From NCBI RefSeq assembly GCF_001027285.1, contig NZ_CP011509.1:4720501-4784500 (forward strand): 64,000 bases of DNA. The letters are read 5' to 3'. This document shows, piece by piece, positions 51,594-55,987 of this stretch. The position numbers and the translations under genes were made by a program. Origin of the DNA: Archangium gephyra (lineage in GTDB: Bacteria; Myxococcota; Myxococcia; Myxococcales; Myxococcaceae). Below the pieces are notes generated by a model. It made no database searches, had not been told where the DNA came from, and saw nothing but the letters and a program-made list of their open reading frames with translations. Position 1 is the stretch's first letter, and the number at the start of each line of letters is the position of its first letter.

Positions 51594-51621
51594 TGTAACC
51601 CTCAAACCCGTCGTGCGTATG
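51594..51621 (+). promoter_or_regulatory. Candidate ECF-type promoter of the RiPP operon
   Basis: TGTAACC (51594-51600) and CGTATG (51616-51621) are 15 bases apart, an acceptable ECF-sigma -35/-10 arrangement with a GTAAC core. It lies 55 bp before the precursor gene. Some bufferin-type operons in Caulobacter are controlled by an ECF sigma factor using GTAACC-type -35 boxes; the assignment here is by resemblance. Confidence 0.45.
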
Positions 51622-51675
51622 ACACCGCGCGAGCTTCTCGCAGCCGTTCCACCCCCCGCAGTGAAAGGACACACC

Positions 51676-51912
51676 ATGAACATCAAGACCATGGCCGCCA
51701 TCGTTGGAACCCTCTCCCTCGGCACGCTCGCCACGGGCTGTGCGACGTCGAAGTCGGCGGCCCCCGCCGATCAGACGGGCACCGCCGCCGCCAGCCAGGA
51801 GAAGGGCGGCGAGTCCCAGTGCAGCGGCCAGAAGGCCGGCACCACCGAGGAGAAGGGTGGCGAGCACAAGTGCGGCGCCAATGGCTGTGGTGGCGCCACC
51901 AAGCCGCAGTAA
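51676..51912 (+). CDS. RiPP-type precursor peptide (HvfA/bufferin-like)
   Basis: 78 residues. A Sec-type signal or weak lipobox region (residues 1-22, TLATGC) is followed by a low-complexity hydrophilic part with two imperfect repeats: EKGGESQCSG (42-51) and EKGGEHKCGA (59-68), then NGCGG. Cysteines at 49, 66 and 71 are the only ones after the signal. EHKCG resembles the EGKCG core in HvfA-family peptides, whose cysteines are converted to oxazolone-thioamide groups that bind Cu(I). It directly precedes an MNIO (DUF692) enzyme and DUF2063 partner. AAAGGAC is seven bases before the ATG. Activity is inferred. Confidence 0.72.
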   Translation: MNIKTMAAIVGTLSLGTLATGCATSKSAAPADQTGTAAASQEKGGESQCSGQKAGTTEEKGGEHKCGANGCGGATKPQ

Positions 51913-51920
51913 CGAATAGC

Positions 51921-51944
51921 CCCCGGAGTCTCGGGGTTGTCTTC
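51921..51944 (+). terminator. Weak hairpin between precursor and MNIO genes
   Basis: CCCCG (51921-51925) can pair with CGGGG (51932-51936), and TTGTCTT follows. A leaky terminator here would give more precursor than enzyme, as is common in RiPP operons. The stem is only 5-6 bp. Confidence 0.35.
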
Positions 51945-52012
51945 CGGGCGGCTGGGGCCTCTTCCCGCCGCCCGTGTCTTTTGGTGGCCGTGTTTTTCCT
52001 GGAGGTTCGCCG

Positions 52013-52855
52013 GTGAGCTACGCGCGCAGACATGGACTGAAGCCGCTCGGAGCGGGCATCGGGTTGCGGCGCGAGTTCTACGCACGCCTCCCGGAGACGT
52101 CCCGCGCCCTGGACTGGGTGGAGATCATCCCCGAGAACTTCCTCACCCTGGGCGGCCGTCCGCAGCGCGCGCTGGATGCGTGCGTGGAGCGCTGGCCGGT
52201 GCTGCCGCACGGGGTGGCGCTGAACATCGGCGGGCCGGAGCCGCTCGACGAGGACTACCTTTCGGGGCTCAAGGCGCTGGTGGAGCGGGTGGACGCGCCC
52301 TTCTTCTCGGACCACCTCTGCTACTCGCGGCTGCGGGGCGCGTACCTGCACGATCTGTTGCCGCTGCCCTTCTCGGAGGAGGCGGTGGAGCACGTGGTGC
52401 CGCGGGTGCGCGAGGTGAAGGAGCGGGTGGGCCGGCCCTTCCTGCTGGAGAATCCGAGCTACTACGCGCGCATGCCGGGGGGCACCCTGGACGAGGCGGA
52501 CTTCCTGCGGCACGTGGCCGAGGAGGCGGACTGTGGCCTGCTGCTGGACGTGAACAACGTGTACGTGAACGCGCGCAACCACGGGTATGACCCGAGGGCC
52601 TTCCTGGACGCGCTGCCGCTGGAGCGGGTGGTGCAAATCCACCTGGCGGGCCACGAGCAGCAGCCGGACGTCATCATCGACACGCACGGGGCGCCGGTCT
52701 GCGACGAGGTGTGGTCGCTCTACCGCTACGTGCTCGAGCGCACGGGCCCCGTGTCGACCCTGTTGGAGTGGGACCAGGACATCCCCTCGCTGGAGGCGGT
52801 GCTGGACGAGGCGGACCGGGCGCGCGCGGTGTTGGCGGAGGTGGAGGCGCGATGA
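52013..52855 (+). CDS. MNIO-family (DUF692) multinuclear iron oxidase
   Basis: 280 residues from GTG with GGAGG seven bases upstream. TIM-barrel family of MbnB, HvfB and BufB, iron enzymes that oxidise cysteines in precursor peptides. Likely metal ligands are all visible: H67 in PHGVALNIGG, D100-H101 in FFSDHLCYS, E146 in FLLENPSYY, D179-N182 in LLLDVNNVYVNARNHG, H210 and H214 in VVQIHLAGHEQ, D223 and H225 in IIDTHGAPV, and E252/D254 in LLEWDQDIPS. Overlaps the DUF2063 gene by ATGA. Cytoplasmic; substrate presumably the peptide encoded upstream. Confidence 0.92.
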   Translation: MSYARRHGLKPLGAGIGLRREFYARLPETSRALDWVEIIPENFLTLGGRPQRALDACVERWPVLPHGVALNIGGPEPLDEDYLSGLKALVERVDAPFFSDHLCYSRLRGAYLHDLLPLPFSEEAVEHVVPRVREVKERVGRPFLLENPSYYARMPGGTLDEADFLRHVAEEADCGLLLDVNNVYVNARNHGYDPRAFLDALPLERVVQIHLAGHEQQPDVIIDTHGAPVCDEVWSLYRYVLERTGPVSTLLEWDQDIPSLEAVLDEADRARAVLAEVEAR

Positions 52856-53568
52856 AACCGGGACTGCGGGGCTTCTTCGACTCGATGGAGCAGTACCTCA
52901 CCCGGCCGGGCCCGGACGCGCTGGAGCGGCTGTACACGGCGCACCCGGGCTGGGACGCGCCGCGCTCGCGGGTGGCGCTCTACGGGCAGATGGTGCGCCA
53001 CCACGTGACGTCCACGCTGGAGAAGCTCTACCCGCTGACGCGCGCGGGCGTGGACGCGGCCCCGTGGGCGGAGCTGGTGCGGGCGTACGAGGCCTCGAGC
53101 CCCTCGCGCTCCTTCGAGATGAACCACCTGGGCGAGGGCTTCCCGGGCTTCCTCGCGGACGAGGCGGCACGGCGTGGGCTGCCGGACTTCCTGCCGGCGC
53201 TGGCGCGCTTCGAGTGGACGGACTTCGCGGTGTACACGTCCATGGAGCCGGTGCCGGAGCGGGTGGAGCGGCTCACGGTGAACCCGACGCTGGCGGTGCT
53301 GGAGCACCCCTTCCAGCTCTGCGCGTACGTGCGGCGGCAGGGGAGGGGACAGCCGGAGGCGGGGCAGGAGCTGGCGCTGCTGTGGCGTCACCCGGAGCGG
53401 CTGGTGACGATGTTCCTGGCCGCGAACGACCGCTCGCTGCTGGCGGTGAAGATGGCGGTGGAGGGACTCACGCCGTCCCAGGTGGCGGAGGCCACCGGCG
53501 TGGCCGAGGCCGACATCCGCGCCGTGGTGGAGTCGTGCGTGGCGGACGGCCTCGTCCTGTCGCCTTGA
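52852..53568 (+). CDS. DUF2063-family MNIO partner protein
   Basis: 238 residues. N-terminal helical DUF2063 domain (LRGFFDSMEQYLTRP, SRVALYGQMVRHHVTSTLEK, LYPLTRAGV) and a C-terminal beta-containing part ending in a helical ADIRAVVESCVADGLVLSP. HvfC/BufC/MbnC-type partners bind the precursor peptide for the MNIO enzyme; the family was annotated earlier as a DNA-binding protein. Translationally coupled to the MNIO gene (ATGA). Confidence 0.88.
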   Translation: MKPGLRGFFDSMEQYLTRPGPDALERLYTAHPGWDAPRSRVALYGQMVRHHVTSTLEKLYPLTRAGVDAAPWAELVRAYEASSPSRSFEMNHLGEGFPGFLADEAARRGLPDFLPALARFEWTDFAVYTSMEPVPERVERLTVNPTLAVLEHPFQLCAYVRRQGRGQPEAGQELALLWRHPERLVTMFLAANDRSLLAVKMAVEGLTPSQVAEATGVAEADIRAVVESCVADGLVLSP

Positions 53569-53575
53569 AGCCCCA

Positions 53576-53637
53576 CCGGGCGGCGGGTTGCCGCCCGGCG
53601 GGGGGTGGCTCCGGCGGGCACCAGGGCCGCCGGAGCC
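53576..53637. terminator. Two tandem strong hairpins ending the RiPP operon
   Basis: First: CCGGGCGGC-GGGTT-GCCGCCCGG (53576-53598), 9-bp arms. Second: GGCTCCGGCGG (53607-53617) and CCGCCGGAGCC (53627-53637), perfect 11-bp arms. They lie between the convergent DUF2063 and PD40 lipoprotein genes. No T-tract, so probably bidirectional structural termination or 3'-end protection. Confidence 0.7.
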
Positions 53638-53644
53638 GGTGCCA

Positions 53645-55987
53645 CTACCGGATGTCGGGCTGGCAGGTGCTGCGGCCACCCGCGCCGGCCACGCACAGCA
53701 GACCATCGCAGCACGCCGAGGCGCCGCCGCACGCCTGACCGAAGCCGGAGCACGGCGGGGTGCAGGTGCAGCTGCCGCCCGCGCAGTCGGCGCCGGTGGT
53801 GTTGTCCAGGCAGCGCAGACCCTCGCAGCAGGGCGCGACGGTCGAGCACGCCTCGAAGGACAGCTTGCACACGGGGATCGCCTCGCACACGCAGGCCCCG
53901 TCCACCTCACAGGGGATGGGCGGATCCTGGTTCTTCTGCACGCACTGCAGGCCGTTGCAGCAGGTGGAGCCGGTGCTGCACGACTCCTGGTCCGTGCGGC
54001 ACCCGTTGCTCACGAAGTAGCTGGCCCACTGGGCGATGTGGTTGGACGTGTTGATGTCCTGGAAGGGCAGCGCGAAGGCCGTGTAGGACGGATCGCCCGT
54101 GCCCACCTTGTCCGGGTCCACCGCCGCCATCCACAGCAGGGTGCCCCAGGAGTTCTCGCCCGAGGCCGTGACGGGCTGGCGCAGGCCGTACTTGCGCGAG
54201 GAGGAGAACGTCACCCACATGAGCCGGCTGGTGTCGCCGTTGTTGCCGCGCGTCACGAAGGGGCTCCACTTCGGGTAGCTGTTGGTCAGGTTGGCCTGCC
54301 CCTTGTCCATCACGCCGCCCTTGTTGGCGTTGGCCAGCTCCACCGGCGTCGCGTTGGCCTCCAGCTTCGCGGCCCACAGCTTGGCGGTCGGGTCCGTGTC
54401 GCCGTTGCAGTCCGTGTGCGACTCACCGGAGGGGCAGGTGGACTCGTTGAAGACGAGGAAGGACGAGTCGGGCGCGATGGCCGGGTAGTAGCGGTTGCGG
54501 CCGCCCAGCGACGACACCACCGTCACCGGCTCGTTCCAGCCGCCTTCCGTCTTCGCCGTCACCATCTTGATGGCGCCCTTGAAGCTGCGCTGGTTCGTGC
54601 CGGCCAGGCCCATGGACATGTAGGCGATCTTCTGGCCGTCCGCGCTCCAGTCCGGGTGGTTGGCGGGGTTGGTCGACGTGCCGGTCCCGGTGATCTCGCC
54701 CTCGTAGGCGGCGGTGTCGCCGTTGAAGAGCTTCAGCGTGTAGCGGCTGGAGCCGCTGTCGGCGTAGGTGCCGACGAACTTCGTGCCATCCGGGTTCCAC
54801 GACTCGAAGTTGCTCAGCTTCGTGCCACTCTGCGCCAGGTCCACCTTGCCCGTGGTGGAATCGAAGGCGGACAGGTCGATCAGCGCGAGCCGGCCGTCGT
54901 TCTGGCCGTTGACCTCGGCCACCAGCTTCTTGCCGTTGCGGCTCAGCGCGTGGCAACCCACGCAGCTGACGCTGGTGTTGATGTTGCCGGCGCGCAGCAC
55001 GGGCGTGGCGGAGGGGGTGCCCGTCCCGGCGAAGTCATAGCGCATCACGCCGGTGCCGCCCGACGTCGTCCAGTAGTAGAGGGCGCCCTTGATCTCGGCG
55101 CGGGCGAACTGGATGGAGATGGGGTCGGAGACGCCCACCTTGCCCGCGCCCGAGTCATCCGTGGAGCGCACGATGAGCCGGACGGGCTGGCCACCGCGGT
55201 TGCTCTCGGCCAGGAACTTCCACACCTTGTCCTCGGGCGTGTAGATGCAGCCGCGCTGGCCCGACGGCACCGCGCCCGTGGGGGGCGTGAAACCGCTGGG
55301 CAGGTAGCAGCGCAGGTAGACGCGCACGTCGGTGATGGTGTTGGAGAACTGGAGCTCGAAGAGCGTGTTGGTGCTGGGACCCGACAGGAAGTGGATCTCC
55401 AACTGCCCCAGGTTGGGCGGCACCATGACGCCGTGGTTGGGGTAGACGATCTGCGGCTTGAGCGCGACATCCACCGCGCCGCCGAAGCGGCCGTCCGGGT
55501 TGGGCGGCACGGGCGAGCCACTGGGGCCCGAGGTGTCCGACACCTTCTGGTCCAGCTTCACCGTGATGTCGGTGGAGACGGACTTGGTGCCAATGCGGGC
55601 GCGCACGAAGCTGGTGCCACCCACGGTGGTGCTCGAGTTGAAGTTCGACCCGAGGAAGAGGCCCAGCCGCGTGTCGTCGATGCTGAAGGTGGCCTTGCTC
55701 GTCACGTCCTCCGTGTGTCCATCGGAGTAGGTGCCCATGACGGTGAATTTCTGGGAGGCGCTGGTGCTGCCCGTGACGGTGAGCAGCGGCTTGGTGGGGC
55801 TGATGACCAGCGAGCCGATCGTCGGGCCGTCATCACCCCCTCCGTCCGTTCCGCCACCGTCCGGACCATTGAGCCCGCCGTCCGTCGAGCCTCCGCCGTC
55901 CGGACCTCCCGGAGTGGGACCACAGGAACAACCAGACAGCGCGGTGGCTGCCATCAGGATGCCAATGAGCCAGGTTTTCTTCCACAT
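53645..55987 (-). CDS. Large lipoprotein with c-heme motif, PD40 propeller and Cys-rich repeats
   Basis: 780 residues. Lipobox TALSGCSCG, then a Gly/Asp-rich linker. A beta domain (about 50-300) is followed by SVSCVGCHALSRNGKKL (CxxCH, about 323) leading into a TolB/PD40-type propeller (SNFESWNPDGTKFVGTYADS, NHPDWSADGQKIAYMSMGLA, NSYPKWSPFV). The C-terminus has three knottin-like repeats (ESCSTGSTCCNGLQC, EACSTVAPCCEGLRC, QACGGASACCDGLLC). Surface-exposed electron-transfer or sugar-binding role possible; no activity is shown. Confidence 0.78.
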   Translation of the reverse strand: MWKKTWLIGILMAATALSGCSCGPTPGGPDGGGSTDGGLNGPDGGGTDGGGDDGPTIGSLVISPTKPLLTVTGSTSASQKFTVMGTYSDGHTEDVTSKATFSIDDTRLGLFLGSNFNSSTTVGGTSFVRARIGTKSVSTDITVKLDQKVSDTSGPSGSPVPPNPDGRFGGAVDVALKPQIVYPNHGVMVPPNLGQLEIHFLSGPSTNTLFELQFSNTITDVRVYLRCYLPSGFTPPTGAVPSGQRGCIYTPEDKVWKFLAESNRGGQPVRLIVRSTDDSGAGKVGVSDPISIQFARAEIKGALYYWTTSGGTGVMRYDFAGTGTPSATPVLRAGNINTSVSCVGCHALSRNGKKLVAEVNGQNDGRLALIDLSAFDSTTGKVDLAQSGTKLSNFESWNPDGTKFVGTYADSGSSRYTLKLFNGDTAAYEGEITGTGTSTNPANHPDWSADGQKIAYMSMGLAGTNQRSFKGAIKMVTAKTEGGWNEPVTVVSSLGGRNRYYPAIAPDSSFLVFNESTCPSGESHTDCNGDTDPTAKLWAAKLEANATPVELANANKGGVMDKGQANLTNSYPKWSPFVTRGNNGDTSRLMWVTFSSSRKYGLRQPVTASGENSWGTLLWMAAVDPDKVGTGDPSYTAFALPFQDINTSNHIAQWASYFVSNGCRTDQESCSTGSTCCNGLQCVQKNQDPPIPCEVDGACVCEAIPVCKLSFEACSTVAPCCEGLRCLDNTTGADCAGGSCTCTPPCSGFGQACGGASACCDGLLCVAGAGGRSTCQPDIR

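Follow-up and report, generated by a model that had tools for sequence, protein, structure and literature searches.

An operon of three genes in Archangium gephyra probably makes a lipid-anchored captophorin, that is, a copper-binding peptide carrying 5-thiooxazoles, as part of an envelope stress regulon controlled by an extracytoplasmic function (ECF) sigma factor similar to those of group ECF16. The operon lies in a window of 64,000 nt (contig NZ_CP011509.1, positions 4,720,501 to 4,784,500 of the forward strand; coordinates given below are window positions) taken from a genome that consists of a single contig of 12.49 Mb. It encodes a small cysteine-rich precursor, an MNIO enzyme and a DUF2063 partner, and it had been described, in a reading of the sequence alone, as an operon of the type that makes ribosomally synthesized and post-translationally modified peptides (RiPPs), a view supported by the matches of the two proteins to PF05114 and PF09836 and by the position of the precursor beside the enzyme. 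Judged by gene content, the operon belongs to the captophorin type as defined by Gadgil et al., with an MNIO, a PME1 partner and a Cys-rich precursor all present. The observation is confirmed to exceed chance, given that the same three genes with their precursor recur in 25 relatives, that the precursor profile matches 67 of the 145 genomes of the order, mostly strongly, and that a hairpin within the operon covaries.

The elements of the operon are as follows.

51595–51620, plus strand: ECF-type promoter, with −35 GTAACC at 51595–51600, a 15-bp spacer and −10 CGTAT at 51616–51620 (read directly)
51664–51669, plus strand: ribosome-binding site AAAGGA of the precursor gene (read directly; AAAGGA or GAAGGA is kept in related loci)
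51676–51912, plus strand: precursor peptide of 78 aa, ATG at 51676, with core cysteines C49, C66 and C71 in addition to lipobox Cys22
51676–51741, plus strand: signal peptide ending in lipobox LATG-C22, probable RiPP leader (from the comparison of substitution ratios given below)
51820–51888, plus strand: core with the candidate modified cysteines ESQC49S, EHKC66G and NGC71G (from the enrichment of Glu at −3 in the family)
51945–51982, plus strand: GC hairpin at 51945–51974 with a T-rich tail, between the precursor and MNIO genes, probable leaky terminator or mRNA stabiliser (from covariation)
52001–52005, plus strand: ribosome-binding site GGAGG of the MNIO gene (read directly)
52013–52855, plus strand: MNIO enzyme of 280 aa, GTG start (PF05114; NCBIfam BufB NF050167; alignment to 3BWW)
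52852–53568, plus strand: partner of 238 aa with DUF2063 and a domain of the RiPP recognition element (RRE) type, PME type 1 (PF09836; AlphaFold match to 3DEE)
53571–53603, plus strand: first post-operon hairpin, possible transcript end (−32.3 kcal/mol, z −3.6)
53607–53637, plus strand: second post-operon hairpin (−31.4 kcal/mol, folded as 53605–53650; z −3.0)

The sequence-only reading had described a 78-aa peptide with two EKGGE-x2-C repeats and an EHKCG/GCGG end, an MNIO gene that starts with GTG behind GGAGG, and a DUF2063 gene whose start shares ATGA with the MNIO stop. All of these are present, the two repeats being EKGGESQC and EKGGEHKCG. It had also called the peptide secreted, and here only a part of the claim stands, as the N-terminal signal exists but ends in a lipobox, so that a lipoprotein is the more probable product. 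Similarly, its two strong hairpins proved to be three, one between the precursor and MNIO genes and two after the DUF2063 gene. Scans of the operon against Rfam and for a sigma-70 promoter gave no match.

The precursor family and its core motif

A scan of 84,980 species genomes yielded 41 loci, and in each of the 25 close relatives from Myxococcota a homologue of the small lipoprotein gene directly precedes the MNIO gene. In the family of 27 sequences used for the precursor alignments, 61 of the 102 core cysteines have Glu at −3 (shuffled sequences give a mean of 12 and a maximum of 24), and 34 of the remaining 41 sit five residues after another Cys. The motif of the family is E-x-x-C-[G/S]. 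Glu-x-x-Cys-Gly is the frame of EGKCG, and the nearest motif relative is the EGKCG (HvfA/fontiphorin) group, since one orthologue, L009, contains three true EGKCG units.

Profile searches against the HvfA, BufA1/A2 and MbnA families bear out the earlier suggestion of a subtype of its own, as the precursor reaches none of them. It scores 15.4 bits against NCBIfam HvfA (NF050188, cut-off 95), it has no BufA or MbnA match in NCBIfam, and it has no match in Pfam, neither to DUF2282 nor to BufA2; orthologue L009, with its three EGKCG units, stays below the cut-off of NF050137 (14.2 against 19.5). Membership in the methanobactin, DUF2282 and BufA2 families was rejected, and since the HvfA and BufA profiles were not reached, we file the operon as a captophorin variant that is neither HvfA nor bufferin. 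A search of a plasmid collection with the precursor gave no match. A survey of the MNIO landscape reported hundreds of unnamed open reading frames with signal peptides preceding MNIO genes (PMC12452194), and the present family may be among them.

A probable lipoprotein signal peptide and its possible leader role

In all family members examined, the hydrophobic N-terminal stretch closes with a lipobox Cys and residues G21 and C22 are invariant, and the precursor is probably a lipoprotein. Such a product would have a precedent in NedA, a lipidated EGKCG peptide that was made in E. coli alongside its MNIO, was isolated in tri-acylated form and showed −12 Da over three motifs (PMC12636315). Moreover, the signal peptide is under unusual constraint. 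Among the 27 precursors, the ratio of nonsynonymous to synonymous changes (pN/pS) is 0.23 for the first 22 codons and 0.88 for the rest, and a second alignment gave a similar split between the signal peptide and the mature part. In 12 species with a gene of the YceI family immediately upstream, the precursor signal peptide stands at 0.175, below both the signal peptide of the YceI protein (0.87) and the MNIO (0.30), so that purifying selection acts more strongly on it than on the enzyme. Signal peptides are usually free to vary, and the constraint on this one would be most simply explained by recognition by the RRE-type domain of the partner, which suggests that the signal peptide doubles as a RiPP leader.

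The MNIO enzyme and its partner

The enzyme matches PF05114 with 358.8 bits (E 1.9e-107) and is above cut-off as BufB only (332.8 bits against NCBIfam NF050167, cut-off 310). Its score against HvfB (NF003818) is 301.4 bits and does not reach the cut-off of 360, and the MbnB-type model TIGR04159 gives 55 bits (cut-off 325); its partner, furthermore, is a DUF2063 protein and not MbnC. A phmmer comparison with 3BWW, used as a stand-in for an HvfB-type enzyme, gave an E value of 5.2e-61 and aligned the conserved His, Asp, Glu and Asn motifs of the metal site. The closest relatives are found in Archangium violaceum (98%) and A. lansinium (97%), and in the tree the window enzyme falls within a 27-member Myxococcota clade with a support of 100/97.

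In the model of FonB, Glu1 of the substrate motif lies between Arg15 and Arg16, and Lys3 and Gly5 lie against Phe250 (Gadgil et al., PMC13097082). The Arg pair (R19-R20 in the window enzyme) is present in all close Myxococcota enzymes and in two more distant ones (L030 and L032), but all of these have Gln (Gln255 in the window enzyme) where 3BWW has the Phe that corresponds to FonB Phe250. Planctomycetota enzymes with a BufA2-type precursor have the Gln and lack the second Arg, while both residues are absent from the enzymes of the DUF2282 type examined. The window enzyme thus mixes features of two groups, as one would expect for a motif that keeps Glu1 and drops Lys3, and this pattern fits the idea that the core motif and the enzyme may have changed together.

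The partner matches PF09836 with 51.9 bits. Its AlphaFold model (pLDDT 87.4) has NGO1945 (3DEE) as best match in the PDB (E 6.3e-8, 206 columns), followed by TglI of TglHI, and on these structural matches we assign it to PME type 1. Characterised MNIO-PME1 pairs install 5-thiooxazoles, and their products generally bind copper (PMC13097082). By analogy, a loss of four hydrogens per core Cys is likely here as well (PMC13097082). Residues 93–238 of the partner also match the model of the SbtM radical SAM maturase with 64.6 bits (cut-off 350), which suggests a shared peptide-binding part.

Promoter, regulon and internal hairpin

The GTAACC promoter pointed out in the sequence-only reading is conserved in orthologous operons, and it is of a type common to MsrP. 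In 20 of 25 related loci, GTAAC(C/T)-N15/16-CGTA precedes the precursor gene or, where a gene of the YceI family (PF04264) is inserted, that gene. Before MsrP, GTAAC(C/T/G)-N14-17-CGT(A/T) occurs 37 to 50 bp upstream of the start in 21 of the 21 genomes tested, where shuffling predicts 0.04, and a DsbD/ScsB-like gene has the same promoter type in 11 of 20 genomes. Across 96 genomes of the family, the strict pattern TGTAACC-N15/16-CGTAT has 63 matches, compared with 11 for the reversed pattern. The proposal that all strict matches mark a single regulon was rejected, because in genomes of the Corallococcus and Myxococcus types many of them lie before genes for large, unrelated proteins.

This arrangement recalls SigF of Caulobacter, which recognises GTAACC-N16-CGAA and drives two DUF2282-DUF692-DUF2063 operons together with YedY/MsrP (PMC3511200), and Msr genes recur in ECF16 regulons in general (PMC8315932). 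The same GTAACC motif is found at MNIO operons on plasmids of Sphingomonas, Burkholderia, Cupriavidus and Nitrobacter. The genome has one homologue of the anti-sigma factor NrsF (PF06532, 31.3 bits, cut-off 26.8), located behind an ECF gene at 11.0148 Mb in which the ECF domains are present. When the genome was compared with the Sphingomonas sigma factor whose gene lies beside an MNIO (bufferin-type) operon, this ECF gene was the top match. Furthermore, genome G042 has a close homologue of the ECF-NrsF pair beside another MNIO-DUF2063 operon. The proposed link of the operon to a regulon of the SigF/NrsF type is well supported by conservation. With regard to a copper response of the Myxococcus xanthus orthologue, we found no report in the literature searched.

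The hairpin between the precursor and MNIO genes, with its T-rich tail, is present in most relatives. In the alignment of its 14 pairs, 93.9% of the cells are paired, 5 pairs have changed on both sides, and the covariation score is 0.226, compared with 0.159 for shuffled alignments (0 of 500). It is likely a leaky terminator that gives an excess of precursor.

Proposed mechanism and alternatives

We propose that the lipoprotein signal peptide would at the same time act as leader and be recognised through the RRE-type domain of the DUF2063 partner, and that the partner-activated MNIO would then oxidise, in the cytoplasm, the core cysteines of E-x-x-C-[G/S], most likely to 5-thiooxazoles with a loss of four hydrogens each. 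Export through Sec, lipidation at Cys22, cleavage by signal peptidase II and sorting, probably to the outer membrane, would follow, and the thiol-bearing heterocycles could capture Cu(I) present in excess, or a soft metal like it, at the envelope. Transcription of the operon, of MsrP and, in part of the family, of the DsbD/ScsB-like gene would depend on a sigma factor similar to those of ECF16 and kept in check by an anti-sigma factor of the NrsF type, in answer to damage that copper or oxidants cause to the envelope, and the conserved hairpin after the precursor gene would allow more precursor than enzyme to be made.

Several observations weigh against this proposal. The window precursor is below every family cut-off in NCBIfam and Pfam, the lipobox was identified by eye, the number of core cysteines varies from 2 to 6 across the family, and Lys precedes Cys at only one site of the window peptide (EHKC). 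The enzyme has Gln in place of FonB Phe250, so its handling of the substrate presumably differs. With regard to regulation, the three loci of the M. xanthus type lack the promoter (they are also without the inserted YceI-family gene), and of the strict promoter matches only around 19 lie before MNIO operons, with others before the DsbD/ScsB-like gene and others before unrelated genes. The broad pattern GTAACC-N15-17-CGTA is not enriched in this genome (12 matches against 21 for the reversed control), for which reason we used only orthologous conservation and the strict pattern. Finally, in the comparison with the Sphingomonas sigma factor, the NrsF-linked ECF scores only slightly higher than the next ECF (45.8 against 43.7 bits), and the region upstream of the NrsF-linked ECF gene itself has no promoter of this kind.

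It is conceivable, although in our opinion unlikely, that the chief role of the modified lipoprotein is that of a sacrificial or redox-buffering sink for envelope oxidants such as hypochlorite, as with the Met-rich peptides MrpX/BcrX in other ECF16 regulons, with metal binding being secondary. The promoter type common to MsrP and the DsbD/ScsB-like reductase would agree with such a role, the variable number of cysteines is as expected of a sink, and the ECF16 sigma factors of Brucella and Azospira control Met-rich scavenger peptides along with MsrP (PMC8315932). Nevertheless, a plain thiol sink needs no MNIO, the mature peptide is devoid of Met, and copper binding is the general behaviour of characterised MNIO-PME1 products (PMC13097082). 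The changed specificity site raises another question, namely whether the MNIO oxidises Cys to something other than 5-thiooxazole, so that the product would serve a different purpose. The Gln255 substitution, the fact that most orthologues have lost the Lys in front of Cys and the many reactions catalysed across the MNIO superfamily (PMC12452194) would favour this, but FonB variants at Phe250 still yield 5-thiooxazole (PMC13097082) and the Planctomycetota enzymes paired with BufA2-type precursors also have Gln, which makes it quite improbable. Lastly, the weak matches of the precursor to generic lipoprotein models, all under cut-off, could be taken to mean that the small gene encodes an ordinary structural or stress lipoprotein and that the true MNIO substrate is elsewhere. 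Its place beside the MNIO gene in every close relative, the second, paralogous pair in the same genome, the Cys repeats with Glu at −3 and the leader-like constraint on the signal peptide make this a highly improbable reading.

Myxobacteria exchange outer-membrane lipoproteins between kin cells. A captophorin held by lipid in the outer membrane, with its signal peptide as leader, might thus be a shared good in swarms, where cells would hand ready-made copper- or oxidant-binding lipopeptides to their neighbours while preying or under copper stress, a speculation that we consider very doubtful. If the operon does make a lipid-anchored captophorin, this class would gain a branch that has a motif of its own, occurs in nearly all fruiting-body myxobacteria and shows a matching change at a mapped specificity site of the enzyme. 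It would also allow one to test cleanly whether the signal peptide of a lipoprotein is able to act as a RiPP leader, and it would extend the SigF/NrsF type of regulon, with an MNIO peptide and MsrP, to Myxococcota, linking these peptides to envelope repair. A specialist would expect a family of this kind; the leader-like signal peptide, the paired change of motif and enzyme and the MsrP-type promoter would provide concrete tests.

Comparison with known systems

The closest known systems are the captophorins of the EGKCG group (HvfA/oxazolin, the fontiphorin FonA and gonophorin), which share a precursor with a signal peptide and repeated Glu-x-x-Cys-Gly units, the Arg-Arg at the Glu1 pocket of the MNIO, the DUF2063-RRE partner and the gene order. 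In contrast, the present operon, from Myxococcota, has the relaxed motif, Gln for Phe at the Lys3/Gly5 contact, scores below the NCBIfam cut-offs for HvfA and HvfB, and no adjacent DoxX; the earlier remark on this last point was correct, the nearest DoxX match in the genome being around 1 Mb away. NedA, a lipidated oxazolin (PMC12636315), shares a signal peptide of the type cut by signal peptidase II and an MNIO-modified EGKCG-like core, the modification being predicted in our case, but it is a Neisseria peptide with strict EGKCG and demonstrated lipidation, while lipidation here is predicted.

The bufferins (BufA1 DUF2282, BufA2, BufB) resemble our system in having an MNIO above the BufB cut-off and in the ECF/NrsF genes and GTAACC promoters that also occur beside their operons. 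They differ from it in their precursors, as ours matches neither DUF2282 nor BufA2, and in DoxX, which is common but not universal in bufferin clusters. With the SigF (ECF16) regulon of Caulobacter, the shared features are the GTAACC −35 element, the control of DUF692-DUF2063 operons and MsrP/YedY by one promoter type and the NrsF anti-sigma factor. The −10 element is CGTA or CGTT here and CGAA in Caulobacter, the NrsF homologue is weak (31 bits) and has an N-terminal extension, and a DsbD/ScsB-like gene is included.

Related loci

A second, paralogous operon (L048) is located around 65 kb upstream on the minus strand of the same genome (around 4.707 Mb, region 4704000–4712000), and consists of a gene for a 94-aa lipoprotein precursor with six core cysteines, followed by MNIO and DUF2063 genes. 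Both the GTAACC promoter and the hairpin ahead of the MNIO gene are absent from it, and the gap between precursor and enzyme is 3 bp. Three other MNIO types exist in this genome, at 0.63, 1.05 and 7.61 Mb: one follows a membrane protein whose Gly-rich tail is of the SSCGGG type, another follows a short peptide of leader type that contains EECPTC, and the remaining one is a 549-aa protein next to an NGLSL-repeat protein.

The YceI-family gene between the GTAACC promoter and the precursor was seen in 13 loci of Corallococcus, Hyalangium and some Myxococcus, and is absent in Archangium. The strict promoter pattern also precedes, at 13 loci, large proteins with low-complexity N-termini, often with an F-x-D-x-F-like stretch. 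In two genomes, G041 and G042, the ECF-NrsF pair is convergent with another MNIO-DUF2063 operon, and small secreted Cys-rich peptides lie behind GTAACC promoters nearby. Loci L030 and L081 encode related proteins with Cys repeats of the CPAGCPA type; the gene in L030 lies directly before the MNIO gene and may encode a protein-sized substrate. Finally, a contig titled Comamonas sp. KCTC 72670 (BNCN01000006.1) carries a Myxococcus-type operon whose MNIO groups with that of M. xanthus, and is probably mislabelled or contaminated.

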